Origin: Deltaproteobacteria bacterium
GTDB lineage: Bacteria; Desulfobacterota; Desulfobacteria; Desulfobacterales; B30-G6
Direction: 5' to 3'
Assembly: GCA_024639645.1 (NCBI GenBank)
Contig: JAHEIB010000010.1
Span: 1-36,354 of the forward strand
DNA: 36,354 bases
Each line of letters begins with the position of its first letter. The first letter of the stretch is position 1. Under the pieces are notes generated by a model. That model was not told where the DNA came from, ran no database searches, and saw only the letters and a program-made list of their open reading frames with translations. The translations under genes and the position numbers were made by a program. Shown here in pieces: positions 3,066 to 35,507 of this stretch.

Positions 3066-3096
3066 ACCACGAAGGCGTGCTTTCGTGGTTTTTTTA
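3066..3096 (+). terminator. Rho-independent-type hairpin ACCACGAA...TTCGTGGT followed by T-run
   Basis: 8-bp stem plus 7-8 T residues, between the hydroxypyruvate reductase gene and the cbiM-type gene. Confidence 0.75.
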
Positions 3097-3129
3097 ATAC
3101 CTGAACTGAGTAAATTTTTCCGAATAGAC

Positions 3130-3735
3130 ATGCATATATCAGAAGGTGTTTTAAATGCTCCGGTGCTTATATCAGGCGCCGCACTCGCCATCGCAGGTAC
3201 TGCGATCGGATTGAAGCAGATGGATTATGACCGCGTTGCCCATGTGGGTGTCCTATCGGCAGCCTTTTTCGTGGCATCCCTCATCCATGTCAATGTGGGT
3301 CCATCCAGTGCACACCTGGTCCTGAACGGCATGCTCGGTTTGTTACTTGGATGGACGGCGTTCCCTGCAATCCTGGTGGCGCTGATTTTACAGTCGATCT
3401 TTTTTCAATTCGGCGGTATTACCACCCTGGGTGTCAATACGATACTGATGGCGTTGCCCGCGGTCATCTGCTATTATGCTTTCAGAAAACTGATCCACCG
3501 CTCCCCGATGCTTGCGATGATGGGATCTTTTGCCTGCGGTTTTGTTTCAGTACTGCTGTCCGCCCTTCTCCTGGGACTTGCCCTGGTGTTCACGGAAAAG
3601 AATTTCTGGTCCCTGTCGGGACTCATTGTGGCGGCCAATTTGCCGGTAATGATTATCGAGGGCATCATAACGGTATTCTGCGTGGCTTTCTTGAAGAAAG
3701 TACACCCGGAAATGCTAAATCAGGAGATTTCATGA
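3130..3735 (+). CDS. cbiM: CbiM/NikM-type ECF transporter substrate-capture protein
   Basis: Starts MHISEGVLNAPVLISGAALA; LIHVNVGPSSAHLVLNGMLGLLLG and LQSIFFQFGGITTLGVNT are CbiM motifs; start chosen in-frame inside ORF 3085-3735. Confidence 0.9.
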   Translation: MHISEGVLNAPVLISGAALAIAGTAIGLKQMDYDRVAHVGVLSAAFFVASLIHVNVGPSSAHLVLNGMLGLLLGWTAFPAILVALILQSIFFQFGGITTLGVNTILMALPAVICYYAFRKLIHRSPMLAMMGSFACGFVSVLLSALLLGLALVFTEKNFWSLSGLIVAANLPVMIIEGIITVFCVAFLKKVHPEMLNQEIS

Positions 3736-4424
3736 TGAATACAGTCAACAATGTGAAACATCTCCCGCACCGCTACTCGAACATGCCTGGTCGTGCCGCT
3801 GCAGGGCTGCTTTCCGTTCTGATCTTCCTGATATTGTTGAATGTTTCATCTGCTTTGGCACACGGGGTGAGCGTCTTTGCCTGGGTACAGGGGGATACCG
3901 TACATACCCAAAGCAAATTCATGGGAGGCAAACGGCCAAACCAGGCATTGATTGAAGTTTTCGACAAAACCGGAAACCTGTTGCTGAAAGGAAAAACCGA
4001 CACCCAGGGACTTTTCAGTTTCCAGGCGCCCAAAATATCGGACATGCAGATTGTTCTGACGGCAGGTATGGGCCATCGTGCCGTTTGGGCGCTTTCAAAA
4101 GAAGATTTCCTGGAAACTGCCGTGGAACCCGAGAATCAACAGCAAATAAATGCCATAACTTCGGAAAAATCCATTCAATCCGACCTGAAAACAAAAATTG
4201 TTGATGTATCCACCGAAAATGGATTGTCAGCTGCGGAGGTGACGGCTCTGGTCGAATCCATCCTGGATCGAAAATTAAAGCCCCTCATGGACAGGATCAC
4301 CGCCTTGAATGAAAATCGGATTTCATTGTCCGATATCCTCGGCGGCATCGGATACATCGTTGGTCTCGTGGGGCTTGCCGCGTACATGCAGTATCGTGGA
4401 AAAAGGAGTGATGCCGAGAAATGA
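3732..4424 (+). CDS. CbiL/NikL-like periplasmic accessory protein of cobalt/nickel transporter
   Basis: ATGA overlap with the CbiM gene; signal peptide; HGVSVFAWVQGDTVHTQSKFMGGKRPNQALIEVFD, carboxypeptidase-regulatory-like fold pattern, C-terminal TM; position between M and Q genes. Confidence 0.75.
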   Translation: MMNTVNNVKHLPHRYSNMPGRAAAGLLSVLIFLILLNVSSALAHGVSVFAWVQGDTVHTQSKFMGGKRPNQALIEVFDKTGNLLLKGKTDTQGLFSFQAPKISDMQIVLTAGMGHRAVWALSKEDFLETAVEPENQQQINAITSEKSIQSDLKTKIVDVSTENGLSAAEVTALVESILDRKLKPLMDRITALNENRISLSDILGGIGYIVGLVGLAAYMQYRGKRSDAEK

Positions 4425-5188
4425 TACCAGAAGTTTTTGCCGGCGGAAACTCCGTCATCCATTCCATTGATCCACGGATCAAGGTCGTATCGGCGCTGGT
4501 CTATTCGCTTGTGATCGCCTTGTCGAACAGTTTTATCATTTTGTTGTCAGCGCTTGCCATATCAGTGGCTCTGGTAATGGCAGCCCAACTGGATACCAGG
4601 GAGGTGCTTAAGCGATTGACAGTCCTGTGGGGGTTCATTTTGCTGATATGGATGCTCGTGCCCCTGACATACCCGGGTGCGACCCTATTCAGGATCGGTC
4701 CCCTGGGTTTCAGCAGCCCCGGCGTGTTCCTTGCGGCACAGATCAGCTTGAAATCAACAGCTATCCTGCTATCTCTCATGGCACTTCTGGCAACCATGTC
4801 CATCGCGGCCATGGGTCATGCACTGGGTTGCCTCGGCATACCTGACAAACTTGTACACCTGCTGCTGATAACCTATCGGTACGTTTTCGTCATGGAGCAG
4901 GAATACCAACGTTTGATCCGTGCTATGAAAATAAGGGGTTTCAAACCGGGAACCAACCTCCATTCCTACCAGTCCTATGCCTATCTGGTGGGTATGCTGT
5001 TCGTACATGCGTCGGCGAGAGCAGACCGGGTTTCCAAGGCCATGAAATGCCGCGGGTTTACCGGCAGGTTTCACTCTCTCCGACAGTTTGAGCCGGATCC
5101 ACGGAACCGCCTTTTTACTGTATTCATGGTCTTTATCATTATCTTACTGGCAACGGTTGAAGTATGGATTCAGACAATACACTCATAA
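4421..5188 (+). CDS. cbiQ: CbiQ-type ECF transporter transmembrane protein
   Basis: SIDPRIKVVSALVYSLVIAL; RAMKIRGFKPG and VSKAMKCRGFTGRF (T-protein A-R-G motifs); ATGA overlap with upstream gene. Confidence 0.9.
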   Translation: MIPEVFAGGNSVIHSIDPRIKVVSALVYSLVIALSNSFIILLSALAISVALVMAAQLDTREVLKRLTVLWGFILLIWMLVPLTYPGATLFRIGPLGFSSPGVFLAAQISLKSTAILLSLMALLATMSIAAMGHALGCLGIPDKLVHLLLITYRYVFVMEQEYQRLIRAMKIRGFKPGTNLHSYQSYAYLVGMLFVHASARADRVSKAMKCRGFTGRFHSLRQFEPDPRNRLFTVFMVFIIILLATVEVWIQTIHS

Positions 5189-5892
5189 ACCTCAAGGGTG
5201 TCTCATACCGGTATCCGGGCGGAAAGACCGTCCTGGACCAGATCGATTTCAAATTTACAAAAGGGGACCGGATTGGTCTGGTGGCACCCAACGGGAGCGG
5301 AAAGACAACCCTGTTCCATGTCATCATGGGTCTTTTGAAACCGTCCAGCGGTACCATCGAGATTTTTGGAAAAGTGCGACAGAAAGAAAAAGACTTTGTC
5401 CCCATCCGCCATCGCATGGGCCTGCTCTTCCAGGATGCAGACGATCAGCTGTTTTCCCCCACCGTCATAGAAGACGTTGCTTTTGGCCCCCTGAACCTGG
5501 GAAAATCAAAGCAGGAAGCCTTGGACATCTCCAGAAAAACCCTCGATTATCTGGGTCTGAACGGCTTTGAAAATCGGATTACCTTCAAGCTTTCCGGTGG
5601 AGAAAAGCGCCTGGTCTCCCTGGCAACGATCCTGGCCATGCAGCCGGAAGTGCTTCTCCTGGACGAGCCCACCAATGCCCTGGACACGTCTATGAAATCA
5701 CGACTCATCAACATACTCCAGGAACTCGAGCTGTCATATGTTCTGATTTCTCACGAATTCGATGTGTTGTCGAAAACTGCCCATGCGTTTTACAGCATGG
5801 AAGGCGGCAAGATCTTCAGGGATGACCGCGAACACATACATACGCATCAGCACGCCCATATAATTGGCAGACAGCCGCACAAACATGTTTAG
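5164..5892 (+). CDS. cbiO: CbiO-type ECF transporter ATPase with His-rich C-terminus
   Basis: Walker A APNGSGKTTL, Q-loop LLFQDADDQLFSPTV, signature KLSGGEKRLVSLA, Walker B LLLDEPTNALD; C-terminus EHIHTHQHAHIIGRQPHKHV. Confidence 0.93.
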   Translation: MDSDNTLINLKGVSYRYPGGKTVLDQIDFKFTKGDRIGLVAPNGSGKTTLFHVIMGLLKPSSGTIEIFGKVRQKEKDFVPIRHRMGLLFQDADDQLFSPTVIEDVAFGPLNLGKSKQEALDISRKTLDYLGLNGFENRITFKLSGGEKRLVSLATILAMQPEVLLLDEPTNALDTSMKSRLINILQELELSYVLISHEFDVLSKTAHAFYSMEGGKIFRDDREHIHTHQHAHIIGRQPHKHV

Positions 5893-7265: not shown

Positions 7266-8909
7266 ATGAACGAAGGCGCTATACTGAACAAACCCTACCG
7301 CATATCAGCTGTTCTGTTCGATTTTGACGGCACACTGACCAAACCGGATGCCCTGGATTTCTCTGTCATCAAAGAGATTCTTGGATGCCCCGATGAGATA
7401 CCGGCTTTAGAATTTATTGAAAGTATATCGGACGCACAAAAGAAAGCGGAGGCATTTAACGAACTGAATCGTTTTGAAAGTAGGGCTGCAGCCAATTCCG
7501 AACCCAATCCAGGCGCGGAAAACCTGATACGGACGGTGCATTCAAAAGGCATTCCCATGGGTCTCGTTACCCGAAACAGCATGGATTCCGTAAAGGTATC
7601 CCTGAAAAATTTTAATAGTATCGGTCTGGATTATTTTGATGTGGTTATCACCAGGGACGATCCGGTGAAACCGAAACCGAGCCCCGCAGGCATTTTATTG
7701 GCCGCCCGCAAACTCAATGTCGATCCCGGGCAAATTCTGATGGTGGGCGATTACGTGTTTGACATCGATGCAGGAAGAAGCGCCGGCACCCTCACGGCAC
7801 TCCTGGATGTAAATCCACGCGTGGATAAACGGCATCTTGAATGTGATATTATCATTTCCTGTCTGGCAGACCTCGAACCAGTCCTCCATATGGGGTCGCC
7901 GCTACCCCAGGGAAAATTACCCAATAAGATGCTCGAACAAATCCTGAATGGGTTTTCATTTGAAGATCCAGCCCTGCTGATCTCCGCCGGCGTCGGGGAA
8001 GATATTGCAGCAGCCGATATCAGCAGGGAAGAAGTCCTGGTATTAAAATCCGATCCCATCACCTTTGCCACGGATGCCATCGGACATTATGCCGTGCTCG
8101 TGAATGCCAACGACATCACAACCTGCGGTGCGGATCCCCGCTGGCTTTTGACAACACTGTTGTTTCCCTGTGGCAGCACCGGTTCCGAGATTCAACACAT
8201 CATGCACGGACTGAACCATATTGCATTAAAATACGGTGTCACGCTGTGCGGAGGCCATACCGAGATTACCGATGCCGTCACCAGACCTGTTGTGGTGGGC
8301 TCTCTGGCCGGTACCGTCCGTAAGGACCTTCTGATAGACAAGAAATCCATGAAAACAGGTGACTGCCTGTTGATAACGAAATCGGTTGCCGTAGAAGGTA
8401 CGGCCATTATCGCACGAGAAATGGAATCCAAGCTGCTTTCATTGGGTTTCAGTGATGCAGAGGTCTGTTCCTGTAAACAGTTTTTAGATCACATCAGCAT
8501 CATGGAAGAAGCCCGAATCGCTAGAGATATTGGTGGTGTTACGGCCATGCACGACGTCACGGAAGGGGGACTGGCTACAGCGGTTACCGAACTAAGTCTG
8601 GCCGGCAATCATCGCATCCGAATCGACATGAATTGCATTCCCATCTTTCCCCAGACACAGAGAATCTGCGACGCCTTCAACATCTCACCCCTGGGTCTCA
8701 TTGGTTCAGGCAGTCTTTTGGTCTGCTGCAGCCCGGATACCAAGGATGATATCCTAACAGGCATCAGGAAAGCCGGTATCCATGCGGCCTGCATCGGTGA
8801 GATTCTTGAAAAGGGAGAGGGTGTTGTGGCCATACATGGCCGGAAACAGACAGCGTGGCCGAAATTCAATGTCGACGAACTGGCCCGGTTGTTTAAGAAA
8901 AAGCCGTAA
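7266..8909 (+). CDS. Fusion protein: HAD-superfamily phosphatase (N-terminal) + HypE/AIR-synthase-like ATP-binding domain (C-terminal)
   Basis: N-term VLFDFDGTLTKPDALDF, GLVTRNSMDS, KPKPSPAGILLAARKL, MVGDYVFDIDAGRSAG; C-term GVGEDIAAADISREEVLVLKSDPITFATDAIGHYAVLVNANDITTCGADPRWLLTTLLFP, CGGHTEITDAVTRPVVVGSLAG, MHDVTEGGLATAVTEL. Confidence 0.85.
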   Translation: MNEGAILNKPYRISAVLFDFDGTLTKPDALDFSVIKEILGCPDEIPALEFIESISDAQKKAEAFNELNRFESRAAANSEPNPGAENLIRTVHSKGIPMGLVTRNSMDSVKVSLKNFNSIGLDYFDVVITRDDPVKPKPSPAGILLAARKLNVDPGQILMVGDYVFDIDAGRSAGTLTALLDVNPRVDKRHLECDIIISCLADLEPVLHMGSPLPQGKLPNKMLEQILNGFSFEDPALLISAGVGEDIAAADISREEVLVLKSDPITFATDAIGHYAVLVNANDITTCGADPRWLLTTLLFPCGSTGSEIQHIMHGLNHIALKYGVTLCGGHTEITDAVTRPVVVGSLAGTVRKDLLIDKKSMKTGDCLLITKSVAVEGTAIIAREMESKLLSLGFSDAEVCSCKQFLDHISIMEEARIARDIGGVTAMHDVTEGGLATAVTELSLAGNHRIRIDMNCIPIFPQTQRICDAFNISPLGLIGSGSLLVCCSPDTKDDILTGIRKAGIHAACIGEILEKGEGVVAIHGRKQTAWPKFNVDELARLFKKKP

Positions 8910-10370: not shown

Positions 10371-12677
10371 ATGTTTTCCTTTATTAAAAATTCTTCCAAG
10401 CATGCCGACTTCAGTAGTCTTCCACTTTCTAGGTATTCATTGAATTTTTCTCTGAACCAGATTGTTCCGGGAGTAGACAATGTCAGACACGATGTCTACC
10501 TGAGTCCCTCTTTTTGTGAAGCCGCCGATAATATTGTCCCCCAGATTATTGCAAAAAATGTCCAATTGAATGAATTTTTCAGAATCGACAAGCCTGCTGT
10601 GTGGGCCAAAAAAGTGACTGGCTTCAAGCAATGTTACCACCAGCTCATTGAAAATGCCATCTATAAGTCAAAACAGGAAAACAATCCCCAAATAGATCTT
10701 TTGGCCCAGACGGCTGTAATGAAATTGCTCATAGAGGACATACGAAGTCAATTTGATAAGACCACCACCAAAATTAAAAACTTGATCCGTAAAGATCAAC
10801 TGACGGACAGGCACAAGAAAGAGGATACAGCCAATAGAAAAGAAGCGCTTTCAAATGTCCTGCAAAACAAAGATATTTTTTTGAGAAAAGTGGGACTGCA
10901 GCTCTTTTCCATGCTAGCCGACGTCAACAATGAAAAGCTTAAAACCATACGTGAGGCAAATTTCGGAGCTGAAAAGCTGCTACCGGACGATATCCTGGAA
11001 AATCCGATTTTTCATTCGCTGAATCCCTATCACGATGCTTTTCTCATCGATGAATATGATGTCATTTTTGGCAGGCGGCGCGAGGACCTGGACAACTATG
11101 ACAACTTGATCGATCTTCTGGAACAACTCTTTCGTTCCATTATTGATAAAAATTCACCCCAGGAAAAAGAACTAGATGACAGCACATCAAACATGTCGGA
11201 CAGGCCAGCCAGCACAACCGAGATCTACAACTATCTCAAACAGATCGAAAATATCGACAGTTTACTGAACTATTTTGGAACCCTTGAGAATATAAAGAAG
11301 AACAAAAAGAAGAAGTTAGACCCCCTTGATATAGAGCATCTGAAAGACCTGGCCGCCAAGCAGAAAATGATCCTCCAGGATTTTTTCAAAGCTTTTAAAA
11401 AAGCCCGTCTGATTCAACGAATTTCCGCGTCCTATGAAATGCGATCGGTTTACCAGAATTACTGCCCTCCCTTGGTGCCACAGCAGATTCTTCTTTTCAT
11501 GATCGATCCGAAATCAAGAAAAATCGTCCAAAAACGACTGAAACAGCTAAAAAAAATTTACCGCAAACCCTTCTCCCTCGGCCCCCTGAAAAAACAAATC
11601 AAAAAACTCCAATATCTGCATGTAAAGGATAAAAAGAAATACCTGATTCGATTCCTCAAAGGAATTGCCCACTATCACCGGGACATTGAAAACTATAAAG
11701 TACTCAGTGAAGCAATGGACCGGATCAATTTGACCACGGACGATAAAATTCTCAATCTGTCCAGGGCAAACAATACCCTGTATGAATTTTTGCTTTCCAG
11801 CGAGAAGTGGGAAGATGAAAAGCCTATCATCAACCACGTTGTGATAAAGGCAGATGTGAGGGGGTCGACTGACATCACACACCAGATGATAAAAAGAGGT
11901 TTGAATCCCGCCTCCTATTTCAGTCTCAATTTTTTCAATCCCATATCTAACATTCTCAAGGATTATGGGGCCGTCAAGGTTTTTATCGAGGGAGATGCCA
12001 TTATCCTGGCAATTTTTGAAAGAGAGAAAACACCCGAGGGGTGGTACGGTGTGGCCAGGGCATGCGGTATTGCCATGAACATGCTGTTTATTATCAAACG
12101 CTACAACGATAAAAGTAAAAAGAATCAACTGCCGATCCTCGAACTCGGTATCGGCATCAACTATCTTGAATCTTCACCCACATTTCTCTTCGATGGGAAC
12201 CAGCGCATCATGATTTCTTCCGCAATTAACATTGCTGATCGCCAGTCGAGCTGTTCGAAACCTTTGCACAAGATCATTTCAAAAAAAAGACCCCCTTTCA
12301 ATCTCTATGTCTACCAAACGGCTTCAGAAGAAGATATGTTCAAGACATCGGACGACATCTCTTTGAGATACAATCTCAATGGGATCGATCTAAATCCCGA
12401 AGGATTTAAAAAACTCTCTCGAGAAATCAATCTGACCACACTCAAGGCAGACCTCCCCGAACTCAATATGAAAAATGTCAAACTGCACACCGGCAAGTTC
12501 CCTTTGACATCCGGCAGATTCCAACGTCTTGTCATCAGGGAATCAAAAATTCGCCAGGTGAACCCAGATACATTTGAACTCTTAAAGCCCACCAATAGAA
12601 GCTATTTTGAAGTCTGTACCCATCCTGCGGTTTATCTGCATGTAAGAACCCAAGTGAAAACAAATACAAGGCCATAA
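10371..12677 (+). CDS. Large uncharacterised protein with divergent class III nucleotidyl-cyclase-like C-terminal domain
   Basis: HVVIKADVRGSTDITHQMIKRGLNPASYFSLNFFNPISNILKDYGAVKVFIEGDAIILAIFE ... ILELGIGINYLESSPTFLFDGNQRIMISSAINIADR follows the cyclase homology domain layout (two metal-site Asp residues present). Confidence 0.75.
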   Translation: MFSFIKNSSKHADFSSLPLSRYSLNFSLNQIVPGVDNVRHDVYLSPSFCEAADNIVPQIIAKNVQLNEFFRIDKPAVWAKKVTGFKQCYHQLIENAIYKSKQENNPQIDLLAQTAVMKLLIEDIRSQFDKTTTKIKNLIRKDQLTDRHKKEDTANRKEALSNVLQNKDIFLRKVGLQLFSMLADVNNEKLKTIREANFGAEKLLPDDILENPIFHSLNPYHDAFLIDEYDVIFGRRREDLDNYDNLIDLLEQLFRSIIDKNSPQEKELDDSTSNMSDRPASTTEIYNYLKQIENIDSLLNYFGTLENIKKNKKKKLDPLDIEHLKDLAAKQKMILQDFFKAFKKARLIQRISASYEMRSVYQNYCPPLVPQQILLFMIDPKSRKIVQKRLKQLKKIYRKPFSLGPLKKQIKKLQYLHVKDKKKYLIRFLKGIAHYHRDIENYKVLSEAMDRINLTTDDKILNLSRANNTLYEFLLSSEKWEDEKPIINHVVIKADVRGSTDITHQMIKRGLNPASYFSLNFFNPISNILKDYGAVKVFIEGDAIILAIFEREKTPEGWYGVARACGIAMNMLFIIKRYNDKSKKNQLPILELGIGINYLESSPTFLFDGNQRIMISSAINIADRQSSCSKPLHKIISKKRPPFNLYVYQTASEEDMFKTSDDISLRYNLNGIDLNPEGFKKLSREINLTTLKADLPELNMKNVKLHTGKFPLTSGRFQRLVIRESKIRQVNPDTFELLKPTNRSYFEVCTHPAVYLHVRTQVKTNTRP

Positions 12678-25279: not shown

Positions 25280-26662
25280 CTATTCCCTGCACGTCAACAG
25301 CGGGTACTTCACAAATGCCACAGACGCATCCCTTCCATGCCGTTCCCTGGCCATGTCAATCGCCATCTCCACAGTCCGGGCATACTCAAAACCGATGTGG
25401 CTCACCAGGGAAGGATTCTCAGCTCCTGCCACCATGACATGCCCGGCATGTCGCAAGCGTTTCAAGGGATGGGTCACCATGATGCCGTGCATGGGATGAA
25501 ATCCATAGCAATGCCGGTATTTGTAGATATATTCCGGTCGGTGGGCAAAGTCCTCTTCAAACAGATCAACAATCTCATAGGGGTCACGGTAAAATGGTAG
25601 AATTTTTTCCCAGATTTCTTTGTGGCTAGGATGGTGCTCATGGTGCCAGACATCGGGAACCGGGCTCGCCAAGATAACGGTACAGCCGGGCTTTCCCATG
25701 GCCTCGATGACACCCCCGAAATAGCCAAGCCCTGTGGAAATCATGGTGAGCATGGGATTCATAATCGAAAAGGCCGCATATGGACTCCAATTCGGTATGC
25801 CGTATAATACAATATCGGCTTTTTCCTTCAAAATCTCTCGCCGGGGTGTGAGTTCCGACCTCATCAGTTCCAGGGCAGCCTGTCGGCACTCAAAGATATC
25901 CCCTGCCCATACAGTATGCACCTGGAGAGGATTTGCCAGAACCGTTTCAATCTTGAAAATACGATCTTTACCGATGCTTTCTTCCACCAGTTCTCCCATC
26001 TCATCCAGAATTTCGTGCATCCTGTTCTTATTCATGGACATGGACATACTGTCAGGCGTGTGATGCCAACGGATACCCCGATACGATGCCAGACCCACAC
26101 AAATTGACTTCCAGCCCCCGTTGAATCCCCGCCACACTACGGTGTTGATATACACGGTGAGATCCGACTCTGTTACCAGTTTGTTGATCTCTACGTCATA
26201 CCCGTTTCGAGTGGTACCAAGATATGACAGATTGCTTTGATCCTCGGCGTCATGGCAGATCAGGCGGTAACCGAATTCTTTCACCAGGTCTTCACCGATA
26301 ATTTTCGCCAGTTCGCGTCGTGTAAATTTTCTATGGATGCCACCGGCACTCACAAGCGTTATGTTGGAACGCTTGACACCCCCTTTTTCCAGCTCTCCGA
26401 TTACCAGCTTTATGGCGGGTTCCCATACCGGCGCAAAACAAGGCACCGTGGGATCATCAAATGCGATGGTTACCCGGGAACCGGGTGCCACGATTTCATG
26501 CAGTGGTGGTCGGCCCAGCGGGTTCTGAAGCGCCTTCTGGATGCTAGCCTGAATGTCCTCTGTCGCTGTCAAGGTTGTCGAAAGACCCGGAGGTGCAGTT
26601 ATTACATTGTCCGGAAGGGCTACCGGGATGGTGCCTGCTCCAAAAACGATCTGTTCTTGCAT
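25280..26662 (-). CDS. LarA-family (DUF2088) protein, nickel-pincer racemase/epimerase-like
   Basis: GSRVTIAFDDPTVP, SAGGIHRKFTRREL, GGWKSICVGLASYRGIRWHHTP (equivalent of the LarA pincer Lys segment GGxKxxxPGxx), GHVMVAGAENPSLVSHIGFEYARTVEMAIDMARE. Confidence 0.8.
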   Translation of the reverse strand: MQEQIVFGAGTIPVALPDNVITAPPGLSTTLTATEDIQASIQKALQNPLGRPPLHEIVAPGSRVTIAFDDPTVPCFAPVWEPAIKLVIGELEKGGVKRSNITLVSAGGIHRKFTRRELAKIIGEDLVKEFGYRLICHDAEDQSNLSYLGTTRNGYDVEINKLVTESDLTVYINTVVWRGFNGGWKSICVGLASYRGIRWHHTPDSMSMSMNKNRMHEILDEMGELVEESIGKDRIFKIETVLANPLQVHTVWAGDIFECRQAALELMRSELTPRREILKEKADIVLYGIPNWSPYAAFSIMNPMLTMISTGLGYFGGVIEAMGKPGCTVILASPVPDVWHHEHHPSHKEIWEKILPFYRDPYEIVDLFEEDFAHRPEYIYKYRHCYGFHPMHGIMVTHPLKRLRHAGHVMVAGAENPSLVSHIGFEYARTVEMAIDMARERHGRDASVAFVKYPLLTCRE

Positions 26663-26814: not shown

Positions 26815-27810
26815 TCATTTTGATTGAACCCTGTATATTCTGATGGGTTTATCAACGCCTTTTACCAACACAGGCGCAAGCGGATGGGTATTTATTTTGT
26901 CCGGCAGACGCGTCAGTGTATCTTCTGTAATCAATACCTCGCCTTCCCGGGCCAGACCCTGCAGGCGGGCAGCGATGTTGACCGCCATACCAATGGAAGT
27001 GAACTCTTTTTTTCGCACAGATCCCAAAACACCCGAAAAAACTTTGCCAGTGGAAATGCCGATTCCCAGCCTCAGTCGAAACCCATTTTTTTGACTGAGA
27101 CCCTCATTTATCTCCCGCGCCTTTGCCTGCATAGCCACGGCGGATCTGATCGCCTTGGTCGGGTCATCCTTGCGGGAAACAGGCACGCCATATACCACCA
27201 TCATACTGTCACCGATGTGTTTGTCCACTGTCCCGTGGTAGGTGTGGGCAATCTCGCCCATGGGGGTAAAAAAGTAATCATTCAGGTAATGGGCCAGCAT
27301 CTCCGGTGGAATATCCCGGGACATCCGCGTGAAACCGCGGATATCTGAAAAGAGTATCGAGACTTCGTGATATCTCGGCTTCAATATGCCGGCCGAACTG
27401 TTCATCTCCTGAAACACCGACTCGGGAACAAACTGACGGAGATATTTTCGGACCGATATATCGTGAATCTTGGCCCTGAGTTCCATGTTGTCAAAAGGCT
27501 TGGTCAAAAATCCATCGATGCCCTGATTGGTTGCCTCGATAGCTGTCTCCACCGATGCATAACCTGTCAAGATTATGCGGGTGATCTCCGGATTCAGTTT
27601 GTATACAGCCATCAGGGTCTGGAGCCCATCGATTCCCGGCATACGAAAATCCGATATGACCGTACTAATACGTGCCACATGTTTTTTCAGAATGTCGAGG
27701 CCACTGTTGCCGTCACCAGCAGTAAACACCTCGTAAGACTCCTGGCCCAAGGCTCTGATAATGGATCGGCGGATCCCTTCTTCATCATCAATAAACAGTA
27801 GTCCATTCAT
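26815..27810 (-). CDS. Response regulator receiver domain fused to class III adenylate/guanylate cyclase
   Basis: REC: LLFIDDEEGIRRSIIRAL, VISDFRMPGIDGLQTL, IILTGYASVETAIEA, FLTKPFD; cyclase: VSILFSDIRGFTRMSRDIPPEMLAHYLNDYFFTPMGEIAHTYHGTVDKHIGDSMMVVYG, LGIGISTGKVFSGVLGSVRKKEFTSIGMAVNIAARLQ; start chosen at MNGLLFIDDEEG. Confidence 0.93.
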   Translation of the reverse strand: MNGLLFIDDEEGIRRSIIRALGQESYEVFTAGDGNSGLDILKKHVARISTVISDFRMPGIDGLQTLMAVYKLNPEITRIILTGYASVETAIEATNQGIDGFLTKPFDNMELRAKIHDISVRKYLRQFVPESVFQEMNSSAGILKPRYHEVSILFSDIRGFTRMSRDIPPEMLAHYLNDYFFTPMGEIAHTYHGTVDKHIGDSMMVVYGVPVSRKDDPTKAIRSAVAMQAKAREINEGLSQKNGFRLRLGIGISTGKVFSGVLGSVRKKEFTSIGMAVNIAARLQGLAREGEVLITEDTLTRLPDKINTHPLAPVLVKGVDKPIRIYRVQSK

Positions 27811-28215
27811 GACAGGCCTCCTTCGCCCGGATATTGCAAGATGCCACAAGACGTTGCGGATGATCTCCAGCATGCCACAAATTCATTTGATTTCAATACG
27901 GTAAATATATGTATTCACTACGGGTTAAAATTGAGTAGTACTGAAACCACCGATGGGTCAGGCATATCAACGGATTTGGGTGTAAATGATATTCCCATCT
28001 TTTAGATGGCTGTCTAAGAAAAAAACAAGAGGAAATAGTTTTAGTAACGCATTGTAGACTTACGGGATTATGTAAACCAGGTTCTGGCGTTACTGCATCC
28101 TACCTTCTGTTACAAAACCTGGGACCTTTCCTGTAGATAGATTTTGGGTCAGCGAGCAAATCAAATGGATAAAATCCTTACCGAGATGCGAAGCACTGCC
28201 GCACGGCAGAACATT

Positions 28216-28300: not shown

Positions 28301-29602
28301 CTAGTGGGTGGCACAGCTCAAGCACGGATCCAGCAAACGCACACAGCGGCCGATAAGGTGTTCGCCTTCCTGTGAGATGGTGTCCCCCTTCAGGTATCTC
28401 TGGGACAAATCCTTGATCAAAAGATTGATGTAGGCGTTGTTGAACTGGGTAGCTACTAGCAAGCGCAGCTTTTCCAGCATGCCTTTTCTAATCAGATAGC
28501 TATGTACGAGGACACCCCGTGGGGCCTCCAACACGCCGAAGCCTTGCCCGTTGATAGAGAAATCAGGCTTAACGCCCGTGTCCTTCAAGTCTACTTGGTC
28601 TAGGAGGGATAGAATGCGCTTGGCAGCCCAGAAGATTTCAAGCAGCCGGCAGATGTCCAGACTTTCGAGGCTCAACAGTTTCCGGTCCTTCAGCTGGCTA
28701 CTCAACGGAAATGCCTGTATTATTGGATCCGCAAGAAAACCCTTGTCCAGAAAACTGCGGGAAAGTGGCCCGACCATCATTATCCCTTCGGGAAACCCCA
28801 AATGGGAGAGGTAGGGGGTTTTGGACAAGGTCCATTCCGTCATGATTTCGGCGACGGAATCTTCAAAGGATTCAACATCAAACGCTTCCCTGAGTTGGCC
28901 TTCCCGGCTAAACGCTTTAAAAGTTCCTGTTTTACCATTGGGTTCGAAAGCCAGATAATTGAGCTGGATGTCTTTCGGAAACACAATGGCAGACGGGTTG
29001 ATATAGGTTTGACCAACGGTAGTTATTAGCTGTGCGGCTCTCGTCTGAACACCGCGTGCGATGCTGCGTACCTCATCCAGGTCCGCAGCGGTGGGCGGCT
29101 GAAGAAAATGGCCAATCCCCATAGAAACAGGATGAATGGCCCTTTTACCCAGCAGTTCGCTGATTTTTAATCCACCCTCTCTGAGGAAAAAAGCATCTTT
29201 GGAAACTTCCGGGTGTTCGGCAGCAAATTCGAATATTCCTCCAGCAGCACCGATAACATCGGGTAGGCTAAGAAAAAAATAGCTCAGGGAATGGCTGCTG
29301 ATCCATTCGCCCAAAACGATAATCTCCCTTAGATATTCGACTGAGAAAGGGACATCCAGACTCATGGCATTTTCGATAGCCCGCAAGCTGGCCACCTGGT
29401 GGGAACAAGAGCACAATCCGCAAATCCGTGAAATAAGGTGGGGGACATGTTCCACTCGGCGCCCCCGAAGAAAGCGCTCGAATCCTCTGAACTCCTGAAT
29501 TAAAAACCTAGCTGTCCGAATGCGTTCATTCGATATTTCAATATCGATATTAGCGTTCCCTTCGATCCTGGTTGCTTTTTTAAACAGCAGCTTTCGGCTC
29601 AT
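28301..29602 (-). CDS. [NiFe]-hydrogenase large subunit (group 3/Mvh-like), no C-terminal extension
   Basis: KATRIEGNANIDIEI, L1 motif RICGLCSCSH, L2 motif DPCLSCATH immediately followed by stop; ATGA overlap with the small-subunit fusion gene. Confidence 0.92.
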   Translation of the reverse strand: MSRKLLFKKATRIEGNANIDIEISNERIRTARFLIQEFRGFERFLRGRRVEHVPHLISRICGLCSCSHQVASLRAIENAMSLDVPFSVEYLREIIVLGEWISSHSLSYFFLSLPDVIGAAGGIFEFAAEHPEVSKDAFFLREGGLKISELLGKRAIHPVSMGIGHFLQPPTAADLDEVRSIARGVQTRAAQLITTVGQTYINPSAIVFPKDIQLNYLAFEPNGKTGTFKAFSREGQLREAFDVESFEDSVAEIMTEWTLSKTPYLSHLGFPEGIMMVGPLSRSFLDKGFLADPIIQAFPLSSQLKDRKLLSLESLDICRLLEIFWAAKRILSLLDQVDLKDTGVKPDFSINGQGFGVLEAPRGVLVHSYLIRKGMLEKLRLLVATQFNNAYINLLIKDLSQRYLKGDTISQEGEHLIGRCVRLLDPCLSCATH

Positions 29603-31464
29603 CTCAACCTCGATGTATCCTTAACAAAGTCGTTGTCAAAATTCAGCGAACTTCCGCCCTTTAACCGTAGCAGCCTGACTAGGCCTCTCAGTTTATCCAC
29701 CCGCAGCTTGGATCGGTGGGCAACGGTGTCGATTACCAGGTCTTCATATATGGATCCAGATTTAATTTTTTCGACAGCTTTTTGCATAGGTCCCCGGCAC
29801 CCCCAGCAGGGAAGCCCCCCCTGAAGGCAAACAGCCCCACATCCGCCTTTGGAAATCAAACCCAAGCACAGTATTCCCTGGGAAACAAGGCAGGTCTCTT
29901 TGTTGACAGCATGGTTTGGAAAGATGTGCATGTCCTTGGGTGCAAGCTTTTTTGGCTTGCGAGGGCATTCCGCACATACGATGGGTTTAATGGTATTCGT
30001 GAGTTCATCGCCCCTCAACTCCTCAATCAAGCTTTTTGCTAGGGATGCCCGAGGGGGACAGCCCGGTAGAAAATAGTCAATCCTTACAACATCGTCCAAC
30101 TTTCTTGCCTTACGCAGCAGGTCGTTAGCTTGGGTCTCCGCAGAATGGTTGCCCGTTTTCTTTCCGGTAGACAGATAATAGGAAAATGGATCGATCGCCT
30201 GACCATAGCTTTCCTCGAGAAGTTCTTCCAACTCGAATTGGTTGGCCATGGCGGGAATGCCGCCAAAGGCGGCACAAGTCCCCCATGCGGCGACAAACCG
30301 GCTTTTTCTGCGGATCTCCAGCAGTAACTGTTCATCCTCTCGTGTGCGAACAGCGCCGTCCACCAAGGCGACATCCACATCATTGATGGTGTCGGCATCC
30401 ATCAACATGGGGCAATAGACAATATCCGCAATTTTTGTCAGAACGGAGAGATCTGAATGGATTTGAATCATGGCGGCGGTGCAGCCACCACAGGTGCTCA
30501 ATGAGACCAGAGCGATGCGGATCTTTTTTTCCTTCTTGAATACCGGTGATATTATCTGGCGGACAATCTCCACAGAACGTTCGGGCGATTCAAGGGCAGT
30601 GGTGCTGATACGTAACCGGGTAATGAGCACCTTTACAATAAAAAAGGCCAGTTTTGGATTTGCGGACAGGCTTTTTTTCAGTTGTGTGCTGTTAATGGCC
30701 ATCAGTTGGGTATTACTTGTCGCTACGGCAGTGGCTGTTCTCGTATTGCCGGTGACCAAGGCCATTTCACCGAAAAAATCACCGACCTGCAATCGATTCA
30801 GTAAGATTTCACGCCCAGCGGCTTCCGTATAGATGTCGACACTACCTTTGGCGACAATATACATCTCCTTGCCTTCGTCTCCCTCTTTAAAAATAATTTT
30901 TTCCCTGGAATAAGAAACTACCGATTTATCGCTGTCCCATGGGAAATTGGCAGGAAGCCGCGGGTATAGTGTTTCAGTACCGGGCGGGGACGTTTCTTCG
31001 AGGGGTGTCGTTCGGGTAATGCTGTCTTCCGGTTCTTGGGAATAATGTGCCGGCAATGTTTCAGATGAAGATAATGTCGAGCGTAGATGATCGTCGGACA
31101 TGATGAGGAAGCGTAACAATTCATTGGTTCTCTCGATACGATGGCACAAGGATTTGATAAGTTGAAGGATAACGGTTGTATCGTATTTGGTTCGGCTGAA
31201 AAAAGAACCTCGATGGACCGGTAAGAGCCTTGTGCGGCAGAGGGCTATTGCGGTGGCTGATCTGGGCTGGCTGTCGATAAGGGCCATTTCACCGAAAAAT
31301 TCACCTTGTTCAAGGAGGGCGATGACAACTTTTTCTCCATTACGCAGGCAGCTGATTTCAATGGCACCGGACTGGACGATGAACATGCTATTCCCTGAGG
31401 AACCTTGTTCGAAGATTACATCGCCATGGTTGAATACAGAGCCAAACAGGTCAATATCGCTCAT
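29599..31464 (-). CDS. Two tandem cyclic-nucleotide-binding domains fused to [NiFe]-hydrogenase small subunit
   Basis: CNB1 GEFFGEMALIDSQPRSATAIA; CNB2 GDFFGEMALVTGNTRTATAVA; small subunit RIALVSLSTCGGCTAAMIQI, AAWGTCAAFGGIPA, IDYFLPGCPPRA, CAECPRK...CLVSQGILCLGLISKGGCGAVCLQGGLPCWGCRGP. Confidence 0.93.
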   Translation of the reverse strand: MSDIDLFGSVFNHGDVIFEQGSSGNSMFIVQSGAIEISCLRNGEKVVIALLEQGEFFGEMALIDSQPRSATAIALCRTRLLPVHRGSFFSRTKYDTTVILQLIKSLCHRIERTNELLRFLIMSDDHLRSTLSSSETLPAHYSQEPEDSITRTTPLEETSPPGTETLYPRLPANFPWDSDKSVVSYSREKIIFKEGDEGKEMYIVAKGSVDIYTEAAGREILLNRLQVGDFFGEMALVTGNTRTATAVATSNTQLMAINSTQLKKSLSANPKLAFFIVKVLITRLRISTTALESPERSVEIVRQIISPVFKKEKKIRIALVSLSTCGGCTAAMIQIHSDLSVLTKIADIVYCPMLMDADTINDVDVALVDGAVRTREDEQLLLEIRRKSRFVAAWGTCAAFGGIPAMANQFELEELLEESYGQAIDPFSYYLSTGKKTGNHSAETQANDLLRKARKLDDVVRIDYFLPGCPPRASLAKSLIEELRGDELTNTIKPIVCAECPRKPKKLAPKDMHIFPNHAVNKETCLVSQGILCLGLISKGGCGAVCLQGGLPCWGCRGPMQKAVEKIKSGSIYEDLVIDTVAHRSKLRVDKLRGLVRLLRLKGGSSLNFDNDFVKDTSRLR

Positions 31465-31840
31465 AGTGTAACTTTTTCAAATAGCATTTCAGGATGCTTT
31501 CTTAGCGGTCAACTGATGATCATACGGTTTTCGAACTGATCGAGTTTAAAGCCGATCGGGTCTGCGCTGACAATAATAGCCCAACCCCTTTGACCAAGTT
31601 GCATCATACCTACAGTATAGAGCATGTCAATTCATTTAAGCAAAGAATGTGATGTCACGACATATCCACCACAACGATAAATTGCTTGCGGACCCTTAAT
31701 AAAATAGAAACCACGAATAGGAGACTGGTTGGGTTCCAAAAAATACCACTAAACGAGATTAGATTGACTTTGCACATAGGAGATATCAATTTTTTTACAA
31801 AAAAGAAATAAGAGCAAATCCCATTGAGTCGGGATTGCCC

Positions 31841-33859: not shown

Positions 33860-34408
33860 CTAATGGTTTTCTTTCTCTTTGATATAGATAGAAATATTCT
33901 CCTCAACTATATTTTTTATTCCTGGGCAGGACACCTCATTCACTTTTACCAGCTCAATATTCTTAATACAGTAATTCTGACGAAGATGTTGGTTAAGTGT
34001 TTTTACTATGGTTTGTTGCACATGGGGTGTATTGAAGTATCCCAATTTTTTTTTGCTGATAACATGTTCTGTAATTTCAAAGACGTCTGGGCAGCCTTTC
34101 GGGGTGTCCTCCGTATTCCTGGTCCGGAAGTCCTCATCTTTCCCTGAAAAATATTGTTCCAAAGGGCGTTCGGTATTGTGGCAATTTCTCGTCACTTTGA
34201 GTCTTTCATCTATTGCTGTTATTATATCGTCTTCAGAGAAAGACATGCTTCCCTCTGACCCTGCAAAAGAATGATTGGGACAGGATTCACCGACCTCCTT
34301 CCTAAGGTTTTCAGATGGAAAATCATCGGGAGAGACGGTATCCTTTTTCTTTGATATAAAAATATCCGCAATGTCCTCAAGCCCCCTGCCAAGACTCTTC
34401 TTTTCCAT
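33860..34408 (-). CDS. Hypothetical protein with a ParB-like N-terminal SLGRGL motif, overlapping the ParA-like gene
   Basis: MEKKSLGRGLEDIADIF start; overlaps the upstream ParA fusion by 32 nt on the same strand; no ParB HTH core recognised. Confidence 0.65.
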   Translation of the reverse strand: MEKKSLGRGLEDIADIFISKKKDTVSPDDFPSENLRKEVGESCPNHSFAGSEGSMSFSEDDIITAIDERLKVTRNCHNTERPLEQYFSGKDEDFRTRNTEDTPKGCPDVFEITEHVISKKKLGYFNTPHVQQTIVKTLNQHLRQNYCIKNIELVKVNEVSCPGIKNIVEENISIYIKEKENH

Positions 34409-35507
34409 TTAGAATGTCCTTTTTCCCAATTTCCAAAACCGAATTAGTGCCACCATAGGCATTGTTTATGTAATTCGAATTATTTTGATCTTCGACCCAT
34501 TCACCATCGACAATAAATTTGTATTGATAAATGCCTGGCTTGAGTAAAACATTTTTTGTCCACATGCCATATTCATCACGTTTCATTAGAAACTCATCGG
34601 TTGGGTTCCAATCATTAAAATTCCCTCCGACCCTTACGGATTTTGCATCAGGCCCAAAATAGGAAAATCGTCTTTCAAAATCTGAGTTTAAAAACATTGA
34701 TTTATTATCCTCAACAGACAAGGTTTGTTCCATTCTTTTCTCTGTAAGAACTTCTTCGGTCAGCATCATATAATCTTGGAACCCGCTCGCTTTTTTTGAA
34801 TAATCTATGATCGGTTTTCCATACCCGGCAGCCTCTTTCAAGGTGACATTGGAACGTATGACCGTTTCAAACATGCTGTCACTGAAATGGTTTTTCATAT
34901 TTTCTAATACTTCCCTCGAAATTCTAGTCCGTTTATCAACGATGGTTCCAAAAACTTTTGTATTGATTTCATGCCCGGTTTTCTTTTTGATGGATTCTAT
35001 AATTTCCATGAGTCTGCTAATCCCATGCAAAGAAAACAAGCTCATCTCTATGGGCACAAACACTTCTGATGCGGCAATAAGCGCGTTAAAGGTCAACAGT
35101 CCAAGACTTGGTGGGCAATCTATGATAACGATATCGTACAGTGAGTGAACTTGGCTGATAGCATGTTTTAAACGGCTCTCTCTTCCCTCTACCATTGAAA
35201 GGTGTTGATCCAAAGTGCTGAGTGAAATATCTGCGGGTGCCACATCAAAGTTTTCTGAAACATTTTCAGAAATATCGGCCAACGATAATCGGCTGTCGTT
35301 AGAAAGCTCCAGGATACTAAGAACTGTATTCTCTCTATCATGGATATCAATATTCAGCCCTAATGAAACATGACCTTGAGGATCCATATCGATTAAAAGC
35401 ACTCTTTTACCTCTATAGGCAAGACAGGCGGATAAATTGATGGCAGTGGTCGTCTTACCACAGCCGCCTTTTTGATTGGCAATCGAAATTGTTCTCATTT
35501 TCTTCAA
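34377..35507 (-). CDS. ParA/Soj-family ATPase fused to C-terminal AMPK/CBM48-type glycogen-binding-like (E-set) domain
   Basis: N-term ISIANQKGGCGKTTTAINLSACLAYRGKRVLLIDMDPQGHVSLGLNI, DIVIIDCPPSLGLLTFNAL; C-term RFSYFGPDAKSVRVGGNFNDWNPTDEFLMKRDEYGMWTKNVLLKPGIYQYKFIVDGEWVEDQNNSNYINNAYGGTNSVLEI. Confidence 0.93.
   Translation of the reverse strand: MKKMRTISIANQKGGCGKTTTAINLSACLAYRGKRVLLIDMDPQGHVSLGLNIDIHDRENTVLSILELSNDSRLSLADISENVSENFDVAPADISLSTLDQHLSMVEGRESRLKHAISQVHSLYDIVIIDCPPSLGLLTFNALIAASEVFVPIEMSLFSLHGISRLMEIIESIKKKTGHEINTKVFGTIVDKRTRISREVLENMKNHFSDSMFETVIRSNVTLKEAAGYGKPIIDYSKKASGFQDYMMLTEEVLTEKRMEQTLSVEDNKSMFLNSDFERRFSYFGPDAKSVRVGGNFNDWNPTDEFLMKRDEYGMWTKNVLLKPGIYQYKFIVDGEWVEDQNNSNYINNAYGGTNSVLEIGKKDILNGKEESWQGA

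Follow-up and report, generated by a model that had tools for sequence, protein, structure and literature searches.

A group 3 [NiFe]-hydrogenase of sulfate reducers with two cyclic-nucleotide-binding domains in its small subunit, possibly gated by locally made cAMP

A 36,354-nucleotide stretch of a Deltaproteobacteria genome (contig JAHEIB010000010.1, here called the window) encodes a [NiFe]-hydrogenase whose small subunit begins with two cyclic-nucleotide-binding (CNB) domains. This is a rare sulfate-reducer hydrogenase, and the two built-in CNB domains together with the usual cyclase neighbour suggest that a second messenger controls, or is read alongside, H2 chemistry. Known hydrogenase control is mostly transcriptional, or acts via redox and O2 chemistry. 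We argue that this hydrogenase may be gated by locally made cAMP, and on the sequence evidence we give that reading an even chance. Slightly more tentative is our broader proposal of a new group 3 subgroup in which cAMP allosterically gates H2 activation or is co-sensed with it, maturation needs no proteolysis and the local cyclases vary.

The gene pair lies on the reverse strand. The first gene (29599..31464) is a single ORF encoding 621 residues, identified as a CNB-CNB-small subunit fusion from Pfam, NCBIfam and full-length homologues. CNB-A covers residues 6-123 (31096..31449, -), carries the cassette FGEMALIDSQPRSAT and is followed by a predicted long helix. CNB-B covers residues 182-292 (30589..30921, -) with the cassette FGEMALVTGNTRTAT. 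The MvhG-like small-subunit domain, with ligands for the proximal and two further FeS clusters, makes up residues 313-621 (29602..30528, -). The fusion stop codon overlaps the start codon of the large-subunit gene as ATGA. The large subunit (28301..29602, -) has 433 residues and ends in DPCLSCATH. An earlier reading of the DNA, made from the sequence alone, had described this arrangement and proposed a domain search; the ORFs agree with it and every family it named was matched, with two PF00027 stretches (E 4.9e-47, 158 bits) and PF01058 over residues 325-474 (E 3e-24) in the fusion, and PF00374 (E 2.7e-26) in the large subunit. Some 140 bp before the start of the fusion gene there is a sigma-70-like promoter candidate, TTGACA-16-TATGAT (31603..31630, -). 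It matches 11/12 consensus positions, but it is weak since the region has about as many such sites as shuffling predicts.

The fusion recurs in other genomes. A same-order sample of 390 genomes was searched for homologues and gave two more full-length fusions at about 38% identity (38-39%), one in the complete genome of Desulfosarcina widdelii PP31 (G326, NZ_AP021875.1) and one in G189 (JAHLLR010000042). A large-subunit scan of a wider contig collection added two Desulfonatronovibrio MAGs (L016 and L017); the scan used two peptide patterns only, so it is a weak test of absence elsewhere. About 1,570 overlapping genome searches, in samples of the class, the phylum, the Desulfosarcina family, the source's own family and the Desulfonatronovibrio order, gave no other members. 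A plasmid search returned no fusion, only CRP-like CNBs and one Streptomyces group 3b-like locus. The five members thus come from Desulfobacterales and Desulfonatronovibrio. They score 769-796 bits versus at most 308 for complete relatives, and all five share one gene order with the same end-to-start overlap. By these comparisons the fusion group is real, old and patchy.

A skeptic could hold that the locus is what remains of a hydrogenase that is decaying or no longer active, or that the assembly produced it by mistake. The distribution is indeed very sparse, two members differ at one FeS ligand, and a sixth large subunit (L023, in G155) is a truncated remnant that we accept as a pseudogene. 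Yet the members are intact at 38-54% identity in five genomes, one of them a complete chromosome, and their catalytic residues are conserved. Conservation across this much divergence largely refutes the idea, which we regard as very improbable. The sequence-only reading had named a frameshift or an assembly join between the CNB and hydrogenase parts as fatal to the fusion; either is excluded by its intact presence in four other genomes, including the D. widdelii chromosome. A pseudogene is likewise ruled out for the five members by the conserved active site.

The residues themselves can be examined in both subunits. The small subunit of the source protein has the proximal-cluster cysteines C325, C328, C397 and C469 and eight more (C497, C500, C525, C533, C542, C546, C553 and C556), in line with the several FeS clusters expected from the first look at the sequence. 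Eleven of these 12 are invariant across the five homologues; in both sequences of the Desulfosarcina type, the C542 position holds His or Tyr. The small-subunit core is 48-53% identical between lineages. The large subunit has both nickel-ligand pairs that had been noted (RICGLC and DPCLSC), and the members keep all four Ni-ligand Cys, the RIEG Glu, the Asp after SLPD/QPD (PDxx) and the EAPRG Arg. HypD is encoded in all five member genomes. With the two CxxC pairs, the RIEG Glu, the EAPRG Arg and Pfam matches over the cut-off, the gene pair has what identifies a [NiFe]-hydrogenase by sequence.

The nearest sequence family for both subunits is group 3c, MvhAG/VhuAG, which is F420-non-reducing and linked to heterodisulfide reductase. 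The best solved relatives of the small-subunit domain in a phmmer search are MvhG chains, 9sfi_I (E 6e-51) and 5odc_E (E 3e-48), and those of the large subunit are 7t2r_D and MvhA. The 12 FeS-ligand Cys and the cytoplasmic type are shared too. However, the candidate that this is just a group 3c Mvh can be rejected. NCBIfam scores fall well under the cut-offs of every named family (VhuA 174 of 800 bits; VhuG, the best for the fusion small subunit, 190 of 450). Typical 3c loci (L024 and L025) carry an MvhD-like gene, whereas neighbouring ORFs and Pfam place no MvhD or heterodisulfide reductase gene next to the pair in the source window, L012 or L013. The two fused CNBs and the missing C-terminal extension, discussed below, are further differences. 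An IQ-TREE tree of 42 large-subunit sequences places the five members in one clade (100/100 support, stem of 1.37 changes per site), separate from an 11-row clade of 3b-like rows and a 24-row 3c/3d clade that includes HoxH. The branching order among these three group 3 branches is unresolved in the tree. It must be noted that HydDB divides group 3 into 3a-3d; its sensory types belong to group 2, namely the kinase-linked 2b and the diguanylate-cyclase-linked 2c, and its paper does not mention cyclic-nucleotide-binding domains (PMC5037454). Judged by the tree, the five large subunits branch deeply within group 3 as one lineage. By the features tested they fall outside 3c and 2b and form a candidate new subgroup. 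The source genome has a gene for a NiFeSe-type hydrogenase as well (L001, G000 C11:4626-6113); its in-frame TGA likely encodes selenocysteine.

All five large subunits stop at the final ligand motif, with 0 residues past DPCxxCATH (CATQ in L016), so they have no C-terminal extension for a maturation protease to remove. Elsewhere there are 19-32 residues past it in complete 3c/3d relatives, 7-9 in most 3b-like sequences, 15 in HoxG and 0 in HoxC. The sequence-only reading mentioned neither this feature nor the response-regulator/class III cyclase gene 0.43 kb downstream. The trait is rare but not unique in group 3, since a 3b-like large subunit (L053, 1474-2718), which adjoins an FNR-type diaphorase gene, also lacks the extension; the idea that it is unique there was dropped for that reason. 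Extension-less enzymes listed so far belong to groups 2b, 2d, 4c, 4e and 4g (PMC7294309).

The extension is missing from sensory enzymes too, and this counts against reading the protein as a gated catalyst. One can imagine an H2 sensor like group 2b. Turnover would be slow, and a redox state set by H2 would alter the affinity of the CNBs for cyclic nucleotide, or a partner's activity, making the enzyme a coincidence detector of H2 and cAMP. The extension is absent as in HoxC, and the H2-sensing groups 2b and 2d are among the extension-less enzymes; however, so are the energy-converting 4c and 4e (PMC7294309), and L053 with its diaphorase shows the same end. The RIEGH motif reads RIEGN in all five members and EGD in HoxC, which counts for a sensor. 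The gas channel points the other way. In an alignment to HoxG and HoxC, all five members have Leu/Leu at its end where HoxC has Ile and Phe, which we take to be bulky gas-channel residues. The absence of an adjacent electron-accepting subunit would suit a sensor, as would the regulatory surroundings (the cyclases, plus an MMPL-CNB-GGDEF gene near a CHASE2-cyclase in D. widdelii and G189). Against this, a CNB is normally an input and not an output, and no kinase or GGDEF domain is fused. Known H2 sensors signal to a kinase or, putatively, to a diguanylate cyclase (PMC5037454). The group 2b enzymes HoxBC/HupUV share the extension-less large subunit but belong to another [NiFe] group and have a histidine kinase partner instead of CNBs and a cyclase; no histidine kinase was found adjoining the pair in the source window. 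The members do not group with HoxC/HupV in the tree, so phylogeny, partner and gas channel all misfit a group 2b identity. Group 2c is putative; it ties a hydrogenase to cyclic-nucleotide signalling by gene context, but it lies in group 2, concerns c-di-GMP and has no CNB fusion (PMC5037454). We consider an H2/cAMP co-sensor rather unlikely, though it is a close rival to cAMP gating.

CNB domains are usually signal receivers that act on the domain joined to them, and CNB folds often do not bind cyclic nucleotides at all. The two copies in the fusion have to be judged separately. In the source protein both have the phosphate-binding cassette pattern, just as the sequence-only reading quoted it. 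CNB-A (FGE...RSAT) has the cassette Glu and Arg in all five members and is 46-54% identical between lineages, on par with the small-subunit core. Its best PDB relatives are the regulatory CNBs of PKG and PKA and the cAMP-binding EAL enzyme Bd1971. These proteins also place one or more CNBs N-terminal to another domain and have matching cassettes; their output is a phosphodiesterase or a kinase, while here it is a redox metalloenzyme. CNB-B is only 23-35% identical between lineages, and its cassette Glu and Arg are kept in three of five members and lost in both Desulfonatronovibrio proteins.

CNB proteins are known as separate partners of group 3b and 3d hydrogenases (PMC12319191, PMC13332983), so the link is not wholly unprecedented. 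A genetic tie between a CNB and a group 3 hydrogenase is seen with HoxI, from the soluble group 3d hydrogenase of Cupriavidus necator, and with the CNB protein of 3b operons. HoxI is a separate protein with a single CNB whose cassette Arg is His (TPHSLS), and its enzyme sits in a different clade; the fusion has two covalent CNBs and keeps the Glu and Arg of CNB-A. Such partners allow a scenario where the CNBs are structural or take another ligand, docking a subunit or a nucleotide cofactor as proposed for HoxI, with no cAMP response. HoxI's missing Arg and the degenerate CNB-B of two members fit it. But CNB-A has the full cassette in all five members and is the best conserved regulatory part, and cyclases are adjacent in three lineages, so we hold this scenario to be unlikely, a little more so than the co-sensor. 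Since CNB-A is conserved with its cassette intact throughout, while CNB-B diverges with losses and HoxI has His for Arg, CNB-A is the probable ligand site. The sequence-only reading had linked cyclic nucleotides directly to H2 chemistry. The intact CNB-A and the adjacent cyclases favour that coupling. A pair of working CNBs is not a general feature, given that two of the five members have a degenerate CNB-B.

The cyclases are found next to the gene pair itself. At the source locus a response regulator-class III nucleotide cyclase (26815..27873, -; PF00072 and PF00211) follows the large-subunit gene on the same strand after 428 bp; the 3.4 Mb genome has 6 cyclases, including this one. In D. widdelii, which has 19 in 7.3 Mb, a convergent FHA-cyclase is 456 bp away (a weak match, E 2e-9) and a CHASE2-cyclase lies 5.8 kb upstream of the pair. 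In the Desulfonatronovibrio MAG L017, with 3 in 2.8 Mb, a convergent cyclase-AAA-TPR protein is 74 bp away. The nearest PF00211 cyclase in G189 is a CHASE2-cyclase at 5.7 kb. Three independent lineages therefore have a cyclase within 0.5 kb of the pair, and its architecture differs in each. The proximity p values are 0.0015 (source locus), 0.0024 (D. widdelii) and 0.00016 (Desulfonatronovibrio), or 1.4e-7 by Fisher's method, and 6e-6 when the radius is fixed at 1 kb, in a post hoc test on few genomes that assumes random gene placement. The other group 3 hydrogenase of D. widdelii is 45 kb from any cyclase. The neighbouring response-regulator cyclase is probably the source of the ligand.

Several other genes deserve mention. 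Upstream of the Desulfosarcina-type loci a conserved gene encodes an MMPL/RND transporter-like protein with CNB and GGDEF domains (L060:1490-4720 in D. widdelii, L061:3480-6737 in G189). It adjoins the CHASE2-adenylate cyclase near the CNB-hydrogenase, and the two may form a cAMP to c-di-GMP relay. In the window, a LarA-like protein (nickel-dependent lactate racemase N-domain; 25280-26662, -) directly follows the response-regulator cyclase gene, and a CbiM/CbiQ/ABC ATPase cluster for cobalt or nickel uptake (3085-5892, +) could supply nickel. A 768-residue protein with no Pfam match (10371-12677, +) has a C-terminal third that by eye resembles a divergent class III cyclase (KADVRGSTDITH..., IEGDAIILAI). 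A HAD hydrolase is fused to an AIR-synthase/HypE/SelD-like module (7266-8909, +), with an XdhC-like gene upstream. A ParA-type ATPase (AAA_31) is fused to an AMPK1 glycogen-binding (CBM48-like) domain (34377-35507, -), an unusual combination.

We argue that cAMP gating accounts best for these loci. A cytoplasmic two-subunit group 3 [NiFe]-hydrogenase would have its cyclic-nucleotide receptor built into the small subunit. The neighbouring class III cyclase would make cAMP nearby, driven by its own input domain, which is a receiver at the source locus, FHA or CHASE2 in Desulfosarcina and AAA/TPR in Desulfonatronovibrio. The cAMP would bind CNB-A, and CNB-B where that is intact. The helices after each CNB would move, and this motion, passed on to the end of the small subunit that holds the FeS clusters, would switch H2-dependent electron flow or the docking of an electron partner. 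That the cyclase input domains vary while the CNB receiver is constant favours a signal that runs from the cyclase through cAMP to the hydrogenase. This, and the fact that CNBs are usually inputs, is also why we prefer gating to the co-sensor and structural scenarios. We infer cAMP binding, catalytic competence, gating and the direction of gating. The conserved fusion and CNB-A cassette, the kept active-site residues, the cyclase proximity and HypD argue for gating. The degenerate CNB-B in two of five members, the distant cyclase of G189, the post hoc proximity test and the lack of an electron partner (MvhD, Hdr or diaphorase) adjoining the gene pair argue against it. An AlphaFold model (5 sequences, mean pLDDT 51, CNBs partly resolved) was uninformative on contacts between the CNBs and the FeS clusters, and it was excluded from this reasoning.

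The sequence-only reading did not know the architecture as a characterised hydrogenase class. It is conserved, and our search of openly available journal papers found none on a CNB-hydrogenase fusion. The members add a group 3 lineage that would mature without a C-terminal peptide to the groups known for this (2b, 2d, 4c, 4e and 4g; PMC7294309). Sulfate reducers encode many class III cyclases (D. widdelii has 19), and gating, if true, would give some of them a testable role. It would also apparently be, in the literature found, the first direct wiring of classical second-messenger signalling to H2 metabolism in anaerobes.
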